Part shown: one piece after another, positions 8,537-61,687 of the stretch | Numbering within the stretch: position 1 is the first letter of the stretch | Layout: every line of letters begins with the position of its first letter | Source of the DNA: Caldilineaceae bacterium | GTDB lineage: Bacteria; Chloroflexota; Anaerolineae; Caldilineales; Caldilineaceae | Assembly (NCBI GenBank): GCA_020433455.1 | Contig: JAGRCP010000073.1 | Coordinates: forward strand, 1-64,000 | DNA length: 64,000 bases | Direction of reading: 5' to 3' | Notes under the pieces: generated by a model | Databases searched by the model: none | What the model saw: only the letters and a program-made list of their open reading frames with translations | What the model was told of the DNA's origin: nothing | Translations under genes and position numbers: made by a program

Positions 8537-9139
8537 ATGAGCGCCATCGGCAAGATTGTTAAATCCAACAGCCATATCGATTACGTCTGTCAGGTTTATG
8601 GCCCGGGCGAGTTTAATCCCCAGCCCGAGCCGGAAGCATATGCTTTCGGTACGTTTGTGGGGATCGATCGGGAGACGGAGGGGCAGGCCAATCCACGGTT
8701 GATCGGCGTGATCTATAACACCCTGCTCATGAACCCCGATTTCGGCACGCTGGGGCCGCGCCTCAGTTCGCGCGCGGAATTGGATGTCTTCTCGCCCGAT
8801 TACCTGGCGGAGACGGCCACGCTCATCGGTGTTTTGGCCGTCGGCGTGGTGGATGAGGCTGGGCGCGTCCAGCAGGGCGTTCCCATGCCCGCGGCTGCCG
8901 TCAACGGACCTGTCCGCCGCCTGAGCGAGGCGGAGGTGCGCACTTTTCACACCAGTCCCAGCGGCGCCTTAATGCTGCACTATGCCGCGCTGCTCATGCG
9001 TCAGGGCGACCCGCTAATTGCGCCGCTCTTGCTCAATATTCTGGATAGCGTGGAGAAACTCTTTCCCAACGAGCGCAGCCGCTTAAATGTCCTGCGCAAC
9101 ACAATCGCCTGGCGGAGCATCGTCCAGCCGGCGGGGTGA
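8537..9139 (+). CDS. HAS-barrel-like protein paired with HerA-like ATPase
   Basis: A 200-residue protein of uncertain family. The N-terminal 100 residues (IGKIVKSNSHIDYVCQVYGP ... TFVGID ... LIGVIYNT) look like a small beta barrel of the HAS type that precedes HerA/FtsK-like ATPases. The C-terminal half is helical (SGALMLHYAALLMRQGDPLI). The next gene, across the array at 9141-9305, is a HerA-like ATPase with its own N-terminal barrel, so this may be an accessory subunit of that motor. No nuclease motif is visible. The partner role is inference from adjacency. Confidence 0.6.
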   Translation: MSAIGKIVKSNSHIDYVCQVYGPGEFNPQPEPEAYAFGTFVGIDRETEGQANPRLIGVIYNTLLMNPDFGTLGPRLSSRAELDVFSPDYLAETATLIGVLAVGVVDEAGRVQQGVPMPAAAVNGPVRRLSEAEVRTFHTSPSGALMLHYAALLMRQGDPLIAPLLLNILDSVEKLFPNERSRLNVLRNTIAWRSIVQPAG

Positions 9140-9140
9140 G

Positions 9141-9305
9141 GCAAGTTGCAGGTTGCAGGTGGCAGGTGGCAAGTTGTCGGGTAATCGGAACCGGTAAGGC
9201 AATCCGTCATCCGTCCGGTTACCAACCCAACAACCTCTGCCTACCTGCCACCCCGCAACTCCGCCGCCCCGCCACCTGCTAACCTGCCACCTGTTAACCT
9301 GCACC
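9141..9305. repeat. GCAGGTG heptad array with facing inverted arms (D)
   Basis: The left arm (9141-9178) is a tandem of GCAAGTT/GCAGGTT/GCAGGTG units. The right arm (about 9241-9305) carries the complementary units CCACCTG/TTAACCT. The intervening 60 nt are unrepeated. The whole gap between the HAS-barrel-like gene and the HerA gene is made of this structure, which runs to the HerA start codon. The same heptad forms array E at 60761-60837. Confidence 0.8.
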
Positions 9306-10973
9306 ATGACCCAACTCTGTATCGGTACTGTCAAAGGCCCGGGTGAAACGCCCAACGAATTTACCATCATTGCGCCGGATCCTGAGCGGCGGGTGAAGCA
9401 TGGCGAGTTCGTCTATTACTACGCATACGTGGACGGCGAGGAGCGGCCCATCCTCGGCCGTATCACCGCGCGCCGGGCCGTGAAAATTTACCCCGACGGC
9501 TTTATGGCCGACCCGACCGTCCCCCCGCGGGAGGTGGCCGCGCTTCTGGGCTTTCAGGGGCAGGATGATGAGCTCTTCGAGTTGACCGTCGCGGTGCTGG
9601 GCTATCATCACCAGGCATTTGGCGACTTTATCAACCCCCGGGTTCCGCCCGAAGGCGGCGCTCCGGTCTACATTGCCGATGACGACTATCTGGCCGACGT
9701 GCTCAGCAAGCGCAAGCGAGCCGAGCGGGGCAGCGCGCACCTGGGCAGTCTCCTCAGCCGGGAGCCGGGAGCCGTGCCGCTGGCTCTGGACGTCCAGGGC
9801 TTTACCTCCACTCACCTGGCCATCATTGCCTCCACCGGCAGCGGCAAGAGCTATCTGGCGGGCGTGCTGCTGGAAGAGCTGATGATGCCCTACAACCGGG
9901 CCGCGGTCATGGTCATCGACCCCCACGGTGAATACAATACTCTCCAGGAAGCCCAAAATCTGGCTGCGTTTGCCGAAGGTAATTACAAACCCAAGGTGCG
10001 CATCTTCCGGCCCGACATGATCCGGGTGCGCATTGACAGCCTTTCCCTGGCCGATCTACGCTATCTTTTGCCCAACCTGTCGGAAAAAATGCACTATCAG
10101 CTGACCCGGGCCTTCAACTTTGCCCGCCGCAGCAGCAAGAATAATCACTACACGCTGGAGCAGTTTCTCTACGCCATCCGTCAGGTGGCTGAGGGCAAGC
10201 GGGACGAAGAGGAGGGCGAAGATGATCCCACCACGGGCGCGCTCATCTGGCGCGTCAACAGCGCACTGCGCAACAGTTCCATCTTCAATGATTTTGAGAA
10301 CCTGGAGTTAGACGAACTGTTTGAACCGGGCCAGGTGACGGTCGTTCAGCTCAATGAGGTAGACCAGCGGGAGCAGCAGGTCATCGCCGCGACCATGCTG
10401 CGACGCATCTACCAGGCGCGCATGGACACGGCTAAAGGCAAGGTGACCCGGGAGGACAAGGGCTACGTGCCCTTTCCCGTCTTCTGCCTGCTGGAAGAGG
10501 CCCACAACTACGCGCCCGCCAATGCCGACGCGGTCAGCTCTGACGTGCTGAAGACGGTGCTCAGCGAAGGGCGCAAGTTCGGCGTGAGCGTGGGGTTGAT
10601 CAGCCAGCGGCCGGGCAAGCTGGACAGCGACGTCCTCTCCCAATGCATGACCCAGTGCATTATGCGCATCACCAACCCCATCGACCAGAATCGCATTGCC
10701 GAATCGGTGGAGAGCGTGGGGCGGGACCTGCTGCGGGAACTACCCAGCCTGAGCAAGGGCCAGGTCATCGTCAGTGGCGCGAGCGTGAACACGCCCGTGC
10801 TCCTGCGCGTTCGTTCGCGTATCACCACCCACGGCGGCGAGAGCGTCAATGCGCCCGAAGAGTGGGCCCAGTGGTTCGAGCGGGATCAGGCCGCGCTCAA
10901 CGCCCGGGACAGTGCGCTGCCCATCGACCGCCGGGCCGATCAGGAAGAGGACGGCGACATTTTGTTTGCGTAA
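9306..10973 (+). CDS. HerA-like ATPase (DUF87)
   Basis: A 555-residue hexameric DNA translocase of the HerA/FtsK superfamily. It has an N-terminal HAS barrel (1-70), Walker A STGSGKS (176-182), a first acidic motif VIDPHGEY near 205, Walker B CLLEEAHN near 395 and the sensor region GLISQRPGKLDSDVLSQ. In archaea HerA drives end resection with the nuclease NurA; no NurA gene lies in this neighbourhood. The ATG lies directly after the right arm of array D with no recognisable ribosome site, so translation may depend on that structure or on coupling. Confidence 0.88.
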   Translation: MTQLCIGTVKGPGETPNEFTIIAPDPERRVKHGEFVYYYAYVDGEERPILGRITARRAVKIYPDGFMADPTVPPREVAALLGFQGQDDELFELTVAVLGYHHQAFGDFINPRVPPEGGAPVYIADDDYLADVLSKRKRAERGSAHLGSLLSREPGAVPLALDVQGFTSTHLAIIASTGSGKSYLAGVLLEELMMPYNRAAVMVIDPHGEYNTLQEAQNLAAFAEGNYKPKVRIFRPDMIRVRIDSLSLADLRYLLPNLSEKMHYQLTRAFNFARRSSKNNHYTLEQFLYAIRQVAEGKRDEEEGEDDPTTGALIWRVNSALRNSSIFNDFENLELDELFEPGQVTVVQLNEVDQREQQVIAATMLRRIYQARMDTAKGKVTREDKGYVPFPVFCLLEEAHNYAPANADAVSSDVLKTVLSEGRKFGVSVGLISQRPGKLDSDVLSQCMTQCIMRITNPIDQNRIAESVESVGRDLLRELPSLSKGQVIVSGASVNTPVLLRVRSRITTHGGESVNAPEEWAQWFERDQAALNARDSALPIDRRADQEEDGDILFA

Positions 10974-33084: not shown

Positions 33085-33110
33085 GGGAGCGCCGGACTTC
33101 AGTCCGGCAG
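33085..33110. repeat. REP-like hairpin element (GGGAGCGCC...GGCAG)
   Basis: GGGAGC followed by the arms GCCGGACT and AGTCCGGC around a 2-nt TC, ending in AG. The 8-bp stem is perfect. The same frame with different stem bases appears twice at 39456-39519 and in decayed form at 53985-54017. It lies in the gap between adenine deaminase and the next gene, beside the possible terminator at 33040-33060; nothing else is evident in the gap. Confidence 0.65.
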
Positions 33111-33307
33111 TAACGCCCCGCAGTCGCTATGTTATTGACGAATAACCGCATCCTATCCCAACGACCCATTTGGAATTGCTGATCTGCTCTATTGCCTGAT
33201 TTCCCCCCACGTGATCTAGAATAATACAGGTTCAGTAATTCACGATTGTCCATGCTGTCGGCCCCCTCAAACGGCAGCCCATCTATGCAAAGCGAGAGAC
33301 CCATCCT

Positions 33308-57398: not shown

Positions 57399-60300
57399 TC
57401 AAAACAGCGGCAACTGTAAGTCTTCCGGCTTTTCACGTACGGCCCTGCGCGGCGTCGGCTCGCTGAGCGCAAGGAGCGCGGCTTCAATCTCCTCCACAAA
57501 GCGGCTGACGGGCGGCTCAACCGTACGTCCGTAGCGCAAGCGACGACGCGCGGCGGTGAGGATCAGCTTCTCCTGGGCTCGGGTCATGCCCACGTAGAAA
57601 AGGCGGCGCTCCTCCGCCACGTTGGGCTCGTCTTCGCCCCGCCGGTAAGGCAGCAACCCCTCCTCGCAGCCGGTGATGAAGACCACGGAAAACTCCAGCC
57701 CCTTGGACGCGTGGAGCGTCATGAGCGCGATCCGGTCCGCGCGGGGATCATAATCGTCGGTCTCCTGCTCCAGGGCGGCTGATTCTAAAAGCCCAGGCAG
57801 ATCATCGCCGGCCGCGGCCCGACGCTTAACCCGGGCCAGGCGCTCCTCGTCCACGATGATGATCTCCCGTGCGGCCAGGCTTGCGGCGGCCGCATCCAGC
57901 CGGGCCGAAAGCGCCTGTGCGGAGCGGGCAGCCTCTTCCTCCAGCAGATCGACCGCTGCGGCCAGTCGTTGACGCTGTTCGCCCTGTAGGCCGGCCATGA
58001 TCGCGGCTTCTCCCCGCACGGCGGAAAGCGGTGCGCCCGCCTGGTCGGCATAGTCCAACAGCGCGGCGATATCCTCGTCGCTGAAAAGCTCATCGCCGGC
58101 ATTGAGCAGGCGACGCCAATGCACGCGTGAATCCGGTTGTCGGCTCAGCCAAAGCAGGGCCAGCAGCGCCTGCACGTCCGCGTGGGCGAAGAGCGGCGTC
58201 TTGCCCACGGTCTGATAGGGCATGCCCGACCGCTCGAAAGCCTCTTCCAGCAGGGCGGCCTGGGCGCCGGTGCGATAGAGTACGGCAAAATCGCCAAAGG
58301 CCAGATCCCGCTCACGGCCCTCTGTGCGATCATCCACCCGGCCCGAATCCAGGGAAAAGTAGCTGGTGCCGCCCACCATGCGTTCAATGCGGTGGACGAC
58401 AAACTCAGCCTCGGCCTTATCCGTGGGCGCGTGGTGCAGTTCCAGACGTGTCGCCGTGACGAAGTCGGTCCAGATTTGGCGAGCGTCATCCCGCTCGGGG
58501 TTGCGCCGAATGACCTGCTGCGCGGCCTCCAGAATCGCCTGGGTGGAGCGATAGTTACGGCTCAGGTTGATGGTGCGCGCGCCGGGGTAATCTTCGGTGA
58601 AGCGCAGGAAGTAGCGATGATCCGCGCCCCGGAAGCCGTAAATGGCCTGGTCGGGATCGCCGATGACGCAAAGGTTGGCTCCGCCCGCGGTCAACAGGCG
58701 CAACAGCCGATACTGGGCCTCGTTGACGTCCTGATACTCATCCACGGAAATCCAGTGATAGCGGTTTTGCAGCGCGGCCGCCACGGTCGGCTGCTCTTCC
58801 AGCAGACGCACGCTGCGGCTGACCAGGTCATCAAAATCCAGCGCTCGGGCGGCCTGGAGGGCTTGGGCATAGACGGCGGCGATACGCACTGCCTCGGCCG
58901 CGTCTTCCGCTTCGACGTTGCCCGGGACGGCCGGATCCAGCGCCTGTTGTTTGGCGGCGCTGACCGCGGCCAGCCAACGCCGGGCCGCGGTCTGGCTCAG
59001 CTCGGGCGCGGTTTGCCGCAGGAGACGCAGGCGTTCATCCTCGTCCAGAATGGTAAAGTCGGCCGGCAGACCGGCTTCAGCATGAAATTCGCGCAGGATC
59101 CGGGCGCCCAGCGCGTGAAATGTTTTGACCGTCATCCGGGCGACCGTCTCCGGCGTGAGGAGGTCAGCCAGGCGCTCGCGCATCTCGTCTGCCGCCTTAT
59201 TGGTAAAGGTGATGGCCAGAATCGACTCGGGATCCGCAGCGTGCTCGACCGCCAGCGCGCGGATGCGATGGGTGAGGGTGCGGGTCTTCCCGGTTCCCGG
59301 GCCGGCGGTGATGATGAGGGCGCAGTCGATTGTGCGGACGGCGGCTTGCTGTTCGGGGGTGAGGGGGGCGGAAGATTGGCTGATTGGGGGTTGAGAGACT
59401 TGAGATTGGGGGATTGGAGACTGGGGGATTGATGATTGGGTGACTGGAGGTTGGGGGGCGGACGCGGGTCTTTCGGGTGCGAAGAGAGCTATCTGGTCCG
59501 TGGCGTTCGCGCCGGCGAAGAGCTTGATGACGCCGTATTCGCCGTCGTACCCGGCGATGCGGGTGACGTCGCCGCGCCGCATGCGCGCAATACCCTGGGC
59601 CAGCTGCTCGCCGGCCGCGGTCGCGATCTCCGCCGGCTCCAGCGTCATGAGAATTTCCAGCTCCGGGCCAAGCTCAGCCAAAAGGCGCATATACTCACGC
59701 TGGACGCGCTTGCTGTTGACGCCCACTTCCACCTGCTCGGAGATAATCTCGGGCAGGGGAATGAGGCTATGGAACGGTTGGGGATGCGCGGGCTGGGCGC
59801 CCAGGGGGCGGTCAGCCAGTTCGGCCACCCGGTGGAAGACGCCTACGGTCACCGGTTTACCGCAGACGGAACAGAGGCCGTTGTGGGCCATGGTCGTCTC
59901 GGGCGTCCAACTTACGTTGCATTTGCGATGGCCGTCATGATGATACTTTCCCTCTTCGGGAAAAAACTCGATGGTGCCCTTAAAACGGTCCGGGTCGCCC
60001 GTGCGCATGGCGTCGAAGAGCGCAGCGTAGCTCAGCTCGCAGTCGAACAGGGTAGCTTCCCGGGCCAGCTTGGGCGGTGAGTGGGCGTCGGAAGTGGAGA
60101 CCAGGGTGTAGCCGTCCAACCCGGAGACGCGCCAGTTCATGGGCGGGTCGGAGGAAAGGCCGGTTTCCAGAGCAAAGATGTGCTGGGTGAGATCGCCGAA
60201 GCATTCTTCCACGCTGTCAAAGCCCGACTTGGAGCCGAGCATGGAAAACCAGGGCGTCCAGATGTGGGCGGGAATCAGCTCGCAGCGCTCGTCAGCCTCC

Positions 60301-60755
60301 AGAACCGTCTCCAGCAGGTCCCGGGAATCCAATCCCAGGATAGGTCGTCCATCGGAGCGGATGTTGCCGATTTGCTCCAGGGCAGCCTGTATGCGGGCTA
60401 CGGCAGCCAAATCAGGCGCAAAAACAACGTTGTGGACCTTGCGCACCCGATCATGACGCTTGTAAATGTTGCTGATCTCGCCGGTCAGAAGAAAGCGCAC
60501 CGGTCGCCGACAGGCGGGCGGGACTTCCTTTTCCACCTGCGTGGCGATTTCGGGCTTCAGGCGAAAAAGGCCCGGCTCAGCCGGCTCCAGCTTGGCGTGC
60601 ATCTCCGCCAGCCAGCCGGGATGGGAGAGATCGCCCGTGCCCACAACCGTGACGCCCTTCAACTGCGCCCAAAGGTAAAGATGCTCGAAGTCCAGATTTT
60701 TGCTGGTCGCGCGGGAATAGTGGGAATGAATGTGAAGATCGGCTACGATAGACAT
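57399..60755 (-). CDS. Endonuclease Q (PHP) - UvrD helicase fusion
   Basis: An 1118-residue fusion. Residues of about 1-425 match the endonuclease Q family (TIGR00375), which nicks DNA 5' of deaminated bases and abasic sites: PHP metal motif DLHIHSHYSRATSK, VSTSDAHSP, and a zinc region with HRKCNV, GLCSVCGKPVTVGV and LADRPLG. Residues of about 475-1110 are a UvrD/Rep superfamily 1 helicase: AGPGTGKTRT near 483, VDEYQDVNEAQ, GDPDQAIYGFRGA, LSRNYRSTQ, LMTLHASKGLEFSVVF and FYVGMTRAQEKL. The joint (434-457) is a five-residue repeat encoded by heptad-like DNA. No ribosome site is visible; array E lies against the start. Confidence 0.9.
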   Translation of the reverse strand: MSIVADLHIHSHYSRATSKNLDFEHLYLWAQLKGVTVVGTGDLSHPGWLAEMHAKLEPAEPGLFRLKPEIATQVEKEVPPACRRPVRFLLTGEISNIYKRHDRVRKVHNVVFAPDLAAVARIQAALEQIGNIRSDGRPILGLDSRDLLETVLEADERCELIPAHIWTPWFSMLGSKSGFDSVEECFGDLTQHIFALETGLSSDPPMNWRVSGLDGYTLVSTSDAHSPPKLAREATLFDCELSYAALFDAMRTGDPDRFKGTIEFFPEEGKYHHDGHRKCNVSWTPETTMAHNGLCSVCGKPVTVGVFHRVAELADRPLGAQPAHPQPFHSLIPLPEIISEQVEVGVNSKRVQREYMRLLAELGPELEILMTLEPAEIATAAGEQLAQGIARMRRGDVTRIAGYDGEYGVIKLFAGANATDQIALFAPERPASAPQPPVTQSSIPQSPIPQSQVSQPPISQSSAPLTPEQQAAVRTIDCALIITAGPGTGKTRTLTHRIRALAVEHAADPESILAITFTNKAADEMRERLADLLTPETVARMTVKTFHALGARILREFHAEAGLPADFTILDEDERLRLLRQTAPELSQTAARRWLAAVSAAKQQALDPAVPGNVEAEDAAEAVRIAAVYAQALQAARALDFDDLVSRSVRLLEEQPTVAAALQNRYHWISVDEYQDVNEAQYRLLRLLTAGGANLCVIGDPDQAIYGFRGADHRYFLRFTEDYPGARTINLSRNYRSTQAILEAAQQVIRRNPERDDARQIWTDFVTATRLELHHAPTDKAEAEFVVHRIERMVGGTSYFSLDSGRVDDRTEGRERDLAFGDFAVLYRTGAQAALLEEAFERSGMPYQTVGKTPLFAHADVQALLALLWLSRQPDSRVHWRRLLNAGDELFSDEDIAALLDYADQAGAPLSAVRGEAAIMAGLQGEQRQRLAAAVDLLEEEAARSAQALSARLDAAAASLAAREIIIVDEERLARVKRRAAAGDDLPGLLESAALEQETDDYDPRADRIALMTLHASKGLEFSVVFITGCEEGLLPYRRGEDEPNVAEERRLFYVGMTRAQEKLILTAARRRLRYGRTVEPPVSRFVEEIEAALLALSEPTPRRAVREKPEDLQLPLF
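59386..59456. repeat. Heptad-like array inside the EndoQ-UvrD gene
   Basis: Degenerate GATTGG/GACTGG units alternate at 7 and 8 nt spacing, giving a 15-nt period that keeps the reading frame. On the coding strand they read as the peptide repeat SSIPQ-SPIPQ-SQVSQ-PPISQ, at residues of about 434-457, between the endonuclease and helicase domains. The word style resembles the intergenic arrays at 10977, 47186 and 1. Confidence 0.75.
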
Positions 60756-60760
60756 GGGCG

Positions 60761-60837
60761 GGTGGCAGGTGGCAGGTGGCAGGTGGCAGGTGGCAGGTGG
60801 CAGGTGGCAGGTAGCAGGTAGCAGGTAGCAGGTAGCA
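60761..60837. repeat. Eleven perfect heptads before the EndoQ-UvrD start (E)
   Basis: Seven copies of GGTGGCA followed by four of GGTAGCA, uninterrupted (77 bp). It begins 5 nt from the EndoQ-UvrD ATG and lies between divergent genes, so it occupies the leader and any ribosome-binding position of that gene. The units equal the GCAGGTG heptad of array D. There is no facing inverted arm. Copy-number variation by slippage is likely. Confidence 0.92.
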
Positions 60838-60892
60838 GGGTAATTGTACCGTACGGAGGGCGTGGATGACCAGCGGGGGCGGGAAATAACAG

Positions 60893-61687
60893 ATGCCGCA
60901 ATTGACTCTCGTTGCGTTTTGGGGAGACAAGCCGCCTGCTTTCCAACGTTATCTGGCGGAGATTGGCGGGCGGATTGGGGCGTCTCCTCTGGGGGCGCGC
61001 TTTACGCCGTATGCGCCGGAGCAGATCCACGCCACCATTGTGGGGCTGGAGCGCATGGAAAACGAACCGGGCTGCTACAACCTGAATCAATTTCTGACCA
61101 CGGGCGAACGCCGCAGCATGGACCTGGCCGCGGCCCTGGGCCTGGCCCGAGCCTGGCCCAGGCTGACCGTGCGCTTCGGCGGCTTCGACCCGGACGATGA
61201 CCGGGTGACCAGCTTCGGCCAAACGCCTTTTGTGCGCAGCTTTCAACTCCGGCGCAAGGCGGGCAAGGTTATGCTCATGGGCTGGCTTCATGCCGACGGC
61301 GATTTTCGCCGGGCGGGAGAGCTGTGGCGGTTGCGCCGACGCTTTGCTGAGGAGGCCGCGGTACGGCCCAAATATTGGGCGGACCACGACTTCTACCTGA
61401 CGTTGGGCACGTTGACGTTGCCGACGGATGCTGCGCCTTCTTCGGCAAAGCCTTCTGCGGCGGAGGCATTCCAGGCAACTATGCGCGACTACATTGCGGC
61501 GAATCCCATAGACGTGATAGTATCAGCCGCAGATTTAGCCTTTGTGCGCTACGTCGATCCCGCCCTTCCTCTCAACGGTTCTTCCGCGTATCCCGTGGAG
61601 GAGGTCGGGTTGGACGCGCAGAAGCTGGCAAGCTTATACACTTCACGCGCGGGAGAAAGGATCGCCCGTGGTCCTCAAAACATTTGA
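60893..61687 (+). CDS. 2H-phosphoesterase-like protein
   Basis: A 264-residue protein, tentatively in the 2H (2'-5' RNA ligase/cyclic phosphodiesterase) superfamily. The first motif, HATI, is at 46-49 (PEQIHATIVGLE). The second, usually H-x-T, appears as FYLTLG near 167, with Tyr replacing His, so full catalysis is doubtful. The rest is unassigned. It is transcribed divergently from EndoQ-UvrD across array E, and its 3' end overlaps the next small gene by 20 nt. Confidence 0.5.
   Translation: MPQLTLVAFWGDKPPAFQRYLAEIGGRIGASPLGARFTPYAPEQIHATIVGLERMENEPGCYNLNQFLTTGERRSMDLAAALGLARAWPRLTVRFGGFDPDDDRVTSFGQTPFVRSFQLRRKAGKVMLMGWLHADGDFRRAGELWRLRRRFAEEAAVRPKYWADHDFYLTLGTLTLPTDAAPSSAKPSAAEAFQATMRDYIAANPIDVIVSAADLAFVRYVDPALPLNGSSAYPVEEVGLDAQKLASLYTSRAGERIARGPQNI

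Follow-up and report, generated by a model that had tools for sequence, protein, structure and literature searches.

An eleven-copy heptad array before the start codon of an EndoQ-UvrD gene in a Caldilineaceae genome with many heptanucleotide repeats

The EndoQ-UvrD locus and its heptad array

The window analysed here is the whole stretch of 64,000 nucleotides at positions 1 to 64,000 of contig JAGRCP010000073.1 of a Caldilineaceae bacterium (Chloroflexota). It carries on its minus strand a gene encoding an EndoQ-UvrD fusion protein, preceded by a tandem heptad array, a predicted promoter and a divergent ORF (Table 1). The EndoQ half of the protein matches PfuEndoQ (5zb8, E 2.2e-44), the helicase half matches PcrA/UvrD and gives a Pfam UvrD match, and both halves were matched in many family members; among the best 80 of 574 matching loci, full-length matches occur in records titled as several phyla. 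Judged from its sequence, the gene is real and its naming as EndoQ-UvrD correct. The orthologues that were read begin with a methionine that coincides with the ATG of this gene (complement of 60753-60755) or lies only a few codons away, and no in-frame ATG, GTG or TTG lies upstream of it back to the stop codon; the start codon is therefore well placed, and the same two observations led us to reject the possibility that the array is coding sequence. The linker between the two halves, encoded here by degenerate repeats, is built from repeats in some other genomes as well, with heptad-based runs at loci L013 (SSPVVGP), L026 (SPLPAPx) and L004 (the 33 loci scanned yielded 11 linkers). Of the 13 other genomes that were searched, two contain relatives of the divergent ORF, whose ATG lies 53 nt from the end of the array.

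Table 1. Features of the EndoQ-UvrD locus, in window coordinates
Feature	Position	Strand	Basis
EndoQ-UvrD fusion gene, 1118 aa	57399-60755	-	ORF, Pfam, homologue matches
Degenerate CAATCCC-type repeats encoding the EndoQ/UvrD linker	59363-59462	-	Tandem Repeats Finder, reading; below the heptad threshold in this genome
CGCCC, 5-nt spacer between array and ATG (plus strand GGGCG)	60756-60760	-	Direct reading
GGTGGCA x7 (CTGCCAC in EndoQ-UvrD mRNA sense)	60761-60809	+	Direct reading; Tandem Repeats Finder
GGTAGCA x4 (CTGCTAC in mRNA sense), ATG-distal block	60810-60837	+	Direct reading
Predicted sigma-70-like promoter TGGTCA-18-TACAAT	60872-60843	-	1 found vs 0.1 expected in shuffles
Divergent ORF, 264 aa	60893-61687	+	ORF call; no Pfam/NCBIfam match

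The two blocks of the array are contiguous and together form 11 heptads without interruption (60761-60837), the variants GGTGGCA and GGTAGCA being segregated into separate pure blocks. Read on the minus strand, the order is TACAAT (60848-60843), five bases, four CTGCTAC, seven CTGCCAC, CGCCC and the ATG at 60755, with the array ending 5 nt from the start codon. Tandem Repeats Finder reports the array at 60757-60839 with period 7, 11.9 copies and 97% matches, the top score among its 12 rows for the window. Since 378 kb of this genome contain 19 period-7 arrays and first-order Markov shuffles of it none, the array is beyond chance. No Shine-Dalgarno (SD)-like 4-mer (GGAG, GAGG, AGGA or AAGG) lies at -16 to -4 of the ATG. 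The first-pass annotation of this DNA had described the array, its purity, its position and the missing SD sequence, and all four are borne out. Both ends of the contig from which the window was taken also lie inside heptad arrays (1-35 of the window and 68953-69053 of the contig, C158). A general enrichment of arrays at contig ends was considered and set aside: arrays were counted at 2 of 62 contig starts and in 49 of 7939 windows, which are too few cases to use.

Predicted promoter and leader

A scan of positions 60700-60960 returned a single promoter-like site, which is upstream of the array and oriented towards EndoQ-UvrD, and none for the divergent ORF. Transcription would thus be expected to start at the ATG-distal end of the array. 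The initial annotation had proposed that copy number would change promoter spacing or leader length of both divergent genes. With the only promoter-like site, itself predicted, upstream of the array, copy number would change the length of the EndoQ-UvrD leader and not the spacing between -35 and -10 boxes; for this gene the leader part of the proposal is favoured and the spacing part is not supported. The sense leader is rich in C (44 C, 12 G), and pyrimidine-C steps recur along it at intervals of 1-7 nt. Its folding energy (-5.6 kcal/mol) does not differ significantly from that of 300 letter shuffles (-8.7 +/- 2.6), and its reverse complement folds at -19.0 kcal/mol.

The same order of -10-like box, repeats and ATG is present at the EndoQ-UvrD starts of two other genomes, G034 and G018, the repeats of the latter being below threshold. 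These three loci prompted a general rule in which a -10 box, an array and an ATG follow one another, and this rule failed for other arrays: of the 18 C-rich arrays near starts in this genome, only the EndoQ-UvrD array itself has a -10-like box directly upstream, and in the distant genome G136 none of 16 does. A -10-like box within 200 nt is found on the sense strand of 9 of 20 EndoQ-UvrD orthologues and on the other strand of none of the 20; such a box also occurs at 284 of 910 genes of this genome.

Ribosome-binding sites at EndoQ-UvrD starts

An SD-like motif was detected in only 1 of 29 readable EndoQ-UvrD starts, arrayed or not, from this genome and its relatives (30 loci, one of which, L030, was dropped because it has no start). 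An array at a score of at least 14 is present in just three of these starts, ours included, and a weak one in G032. Starts were also read at six of the best 80 of 574 loci; four were found, from further named relatives excluded from the 29, and two of them (L136, L163) carry an SD-like 4-mer. The SD sequence is thus not absent everywhere among EndoQ-UvrD orthologues. Across the genome studied here, an SD-like 4-mer lies at -16 to -4 in 49 of 124 strictly chosen starts vs 7 of 124 further upstream, which indicates that SD sequences are used by a minority of its genes. Because EndoQ-UvrD mostly lacks an SD sequence with or without an array, there is no sign of replacement, and the earlier suggestion that the array replaces the ribosome-binding region is not borne out. 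We likewise reject the idea that the array displaced an SD sequence, 28 of the 29 readable starts having no such motif, even though L136 and L163 have one.

Leaderless transcripts are suggested at three of the EndoQ-UvrD loci (L007, L017 and L028), where a -10-like box precedes the ATG by 12-13 nt. Eight relatives (L011, L016, L018-L021, L023 and L025) have in common an upstream sequence, extending up to the ATG, that looks like coding sequence.

Heptad arrays across the genome

We identified 65 period-7 arrays in 100 stretches of this genome (1,623,853 bases), part of which had been selected for carrying GGTRGCA. The same stretches contain 25 arrays of period 8, 16 to 19 for each of the periods 12, 15, 16, 18, 24 and 30, and 48, 35 and 21 for the multiples of seven (14, 21 and 28, respectively); each of the remaining periods of 4-30 is represented by 0 to 5 arrays. 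Forty stretches for which contig number was the only selection criterion (576,631 bases) gave 14 arrays of period 7 and 5 of period 8. Single linkage at one mismatch, used descriptively, places 60 of the 65 arrays in two clusters, 40 GATTGAA-like and 20 GGTGGCA-like, and the EndoQ-UvrD array belongs to one of these two main clusters. Only 23 distinct units are found among the 65 arrays, while a single random draw of the same size gave 65; this sharing of units exceeds what independent slippage predicts. Ten of the 65 arrays are well inside ORFs, as called by a longest-ORF script and no annotation pipeline; the arrays as a whole are mostly extragenic, preceding and following many genes other than EndoQ-UvrD.

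A whole-genome search located tandem GGTGGCA at 19 places, two of them being the sides of one assembly gap, with 2 (six loci), 3, 3, 4, 4, 4, 5, 6, 6, 7, 8, 9, 9 and 17 copies, and thus no peak at four units. Five or more copies are present at 8 of these 19 loci vs 3 of 58 AAGATTG loci (Fisher p 0.0004; AAGATTG counted over 100 of its 149 places, those listed first). Whole-genome counts were used here because the sampled regions, some of them picked for GGTRGCA, bias a comparison of copy length.

Some further arrays deserve mention. At locus L108, a CTGCCAC array that immediately precedes an ATG is interrupted by an assembly gap of N (contig C8, about 33095-33190). Inspection by eye revealed inverted pairs of heptad arrays flanking hairpin-like intergenic sequences at L041 (15022-15115), L055 (about 10064-10119) and L034 (about 8913-9053); these pairs look like terminators with heptad arms.

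Orientation of arrays at gene boundaries

Arrays no more than 40 nt from a gene boundary have a marked orientation in this genome. On the sense strand, 19 are C-rich and 5 G-rich at starts, and 3 are C-rich and 22 G-rich at stops (one tie each; Fisher p 2.3e-6), while array-free control windows are near 1:1. Where an ORF call overlapped an array, the first in-frame start codon downstream of the array was used as the start, a choice that biases distances towards small values; apart from the 40-nt cut, the orientation counts are independent of this distance. The G136 genome shows 16:9 in favour of C-rich at starts and 18:7 in favour of G-rich at stops (p 0.022), and a third genome, G013, offers only four stop-side cases, all G-rich; the contigs of both were picked because pattern matches lay on them.

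Sorted by type of intergenic gap, codirectional starts are 13:2 C-rich in this genome and 8:1 in G136, codirectional stops 15:2 and 6:5 G-rich, and convergent gaps 6:1 and 12:2 G-rich, respectively. Divergent gaps show no clear bias (5:3 C-rich here, 8:8 in G136); the orientation of the EndoQ-UvrD array, which lies in such a gap, therefore carries little weight. Since the 3′ rule holds in convergent gaps and no clear bias is seen in divergent ones, we doubt that selection on 5′ leaders is the sole cause of the orientation. Stop codons within the unit were rejected as its cause, as GGTGGCA contains no stop in any frame and its arrays obey the rule (C-rich to G-rich 4:1 at starts and 0:5 at stops in this genome).

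One codirectional gap of the window shows the orientation rule within a single gap: degenerate GGTGGCA-type repeats (9141-9174) lie 1 nt after a stop codon, and the inverse type (CCACCTGCTAACCTG; 9271-9302) precedes the next ATG.

Heptads in other genomes and at the same start codon

No second genome of the genus was present among 61 genomes searched. Three tandem copies of CTGCCAC were found in 6 of 199 genomes of the class, and three of CTGCYAC in 7 of 37 genomes of the family, this genome included in both counts. The G136 genome (family f15; L211-L230) contains 62 arrays in 400 kb, including GGTGGCA-, GATTGGA- and CAACAGT-type units, and a search of the whole of it located CAACART x3 at 151 places.

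Other heptads occupy the EndoQ-UvrD start in relatives, with arrays in two other genera (G034 and G004). In G034, about 21 heptads are present, first of GGCAAGT type and then of CGCCAAT type, the first part being G-rich in the sense strand; G004 has CCATCGT x3 and G032 a weak CCAATCx run. The heptads in this slot thus vary from genus to genus and run in either strand sense, which counts against one sequence-specific site. The G004 genome contains 134 matches of CAYCGTC x3, met as the reversed control of another pattern. We found no paper in the open-access literature on heptanucleotide repeats in Chloroflexi or on tandem repeats in Caldilineaceae.

Origin and possible effect of the array

The array is probably a tolerated heptanucleotide microsatellite, grown by slippage in the 5′ leader of EndoQ-UvrD. 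Replication slippage would lengthen it, and slippage combined with occasional mutation leaves pure blocks such as those formed here by the two unit variants. That such an array is prone to slippage, as first proposed from the letters alone, is reasonable given these blocks and the greater length of GGTGGCA than of AAGATTG loci. Transcription from TACAAT would make the array almost the whole leader; EndoQ-UvrD would be read without an SD sequence, so that a G-poor leader could be tolerated, and a weakly folded sense leader should do little harm to such a start. Each unit would add or remove 7 nt of leader, and expression may shift mildly. A dedicated function of the array is not needed.

A few units common to many loci are, as a genome-wide pattern, not accounted for by independent slippage. 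One broader reading, which strikes us as unlikely, is that heptad arrays are a recurrent gene-boundary trait rebuilt by unrelated bacteria, with genome-specific units, the C-rich strand inward at ORF ends and slots that are re-occupied; the EndoQ-UvrD start has CTGCCAC here, CCATCGT in the CAYCGTC-rich G004 and a GGCAAGT-type mix in G034. If true, this would imply an active heptad-making process at gene boundaries, by seeding or linked to transcription, beyond passive slippage.

It is quite unlikely that the array is a contingency (phase-variation) switch, in which leader copy number would turn EndoQ-UvrD up or down by analogy with the hmw1A gene of Haemophilus influenzae. A pure array between a predicted promoter and an ATG would suit such a switch, and in the part of the hmw1A study cited here more 7-bp repeats lowered expression, from the P2 promoter only (PMC8262952). 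However, EndoQ-UvrD is a DNA-repair enzyme and no surface structure, comparable arrays flank many other genes of the same genome, and 26 of 29 EndoQ-UvrD starts lack an array at a score of at least 14.

We find it improbable that the array is a sequence-specific regulatory site, such as a Rho-utilisation stretch, rich in C and poor in G, or a site recognised by an RNA-binding protein, with repetition raising the avidity. The composition of the sense leader and its regular pyrimidine-C steps fit such a site, and a Rho RNA-binding domain is encoded in this genome (2 matches), but the other heptads in the slot in other genera, including the G-rich first part in G034, argue against it, as does the lack of C-rich bias in divergent gaps, the gap type of the array. 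Equally improbable is a DNA-level boundary element, with arrays flanking ORFs, G-rich strand outward, as hairpin or G-quadruplex barriers: the start and stop bias and its presence in convergent gaps favour it, but bias is not clear in divergent gaps and absent after codirectional stops in G136, no two adjacent G occur inside the commonest unit, AAGATTG, and GGTGGCA loci show no preference for four units.

Comparison with known heptad systems

Cyanobacterial short tandemly repeated repetitive (STRR) heptamers are a known class of such sequences; several heptads per genome are common to them and to the arrays described here, which belong to another phylum. Three heptads are cited for Calothrix in the part of Rehm et al. 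(2015; PMC4692102) drawn on here. That part describes GGGAATC and GGGGA(C/T)T heptamers of Xanthomonas and Nostoc as dispersed and over-represented outside genes, occurring as single arrays and inverted pairs, with the G-rich strand being the non-coding one before starts and the coding one after stops, a preference for four units that the authors tie to G-quadruplex formation, and under-representation in divergent gaps. The present genome has likewise dispersed heptads at many loci, mostly extragenic (10 of 65 arrays well inside ORFs), the same orientation rule within 40 nt of boundaries, but only 5:3 in divergent gaps, and both single arrays and inverted pairs. It differs from the Xanthomonas and Nostoc systems, as far as the cited part describes them, in its GATTGAA-like and GGTGGCA-like units and in the position of the EndoQ-UvrD array within a divergent gap, and the missing peak at four units keeps this array out of the G-quadruplex subclass.

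The TAACTGA repeats of marine Beggiatoaceae stop a few nucleotides short of start codons, in most cases with no ribosome-binding site, and consist of one unit with 2-6 copies in the main genome, according to the sections of MacGregor (2015; PMC4679880) cited here. The EndoQ-UvrD array resembles them in ending 5 nt before an ATG without an SD sequence; unlike these repeats as there described, the arrays of the present genome form two unit clusters and are as often located after stops as before starts. A search of this genome for TAACTGA x3 gave 0 matches; G136 and G034 each contain one. At the adhesin locus hmw1A of H. influenzae, the portion of the study cited above reports 7-bp repeats downstream of the promoter, whose measured variation is accompanied by a fall of expression with copy number. 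The EndoQ-UvrD heptads lie downstream of a predicted promoter, and a similar link between copy number and expression is plausible, whereas the heptads here precede a DNA-repair gene and not, as in that account, an adhesin gene.

The EndoQ-UvrD array is therefore a further start-proximal heptad repeat resembling those described in other bacteria. On the evidence of the cited parts of these papers, the orientation rule has already been described in Xanthomonas and Nostoc, as have start-proximal heptads lacking an SD sequence in Beggiatoaceae. The surrounding data outweigh the single array: dozens of heptad arrays in one Chloroflexota genome follow the Xanthomonas and Nostoc rule, and the same gene start is occupied by other heptads in two relatives, so that the origin and effect of bacterial heptads become testable by comparison across many genomes.
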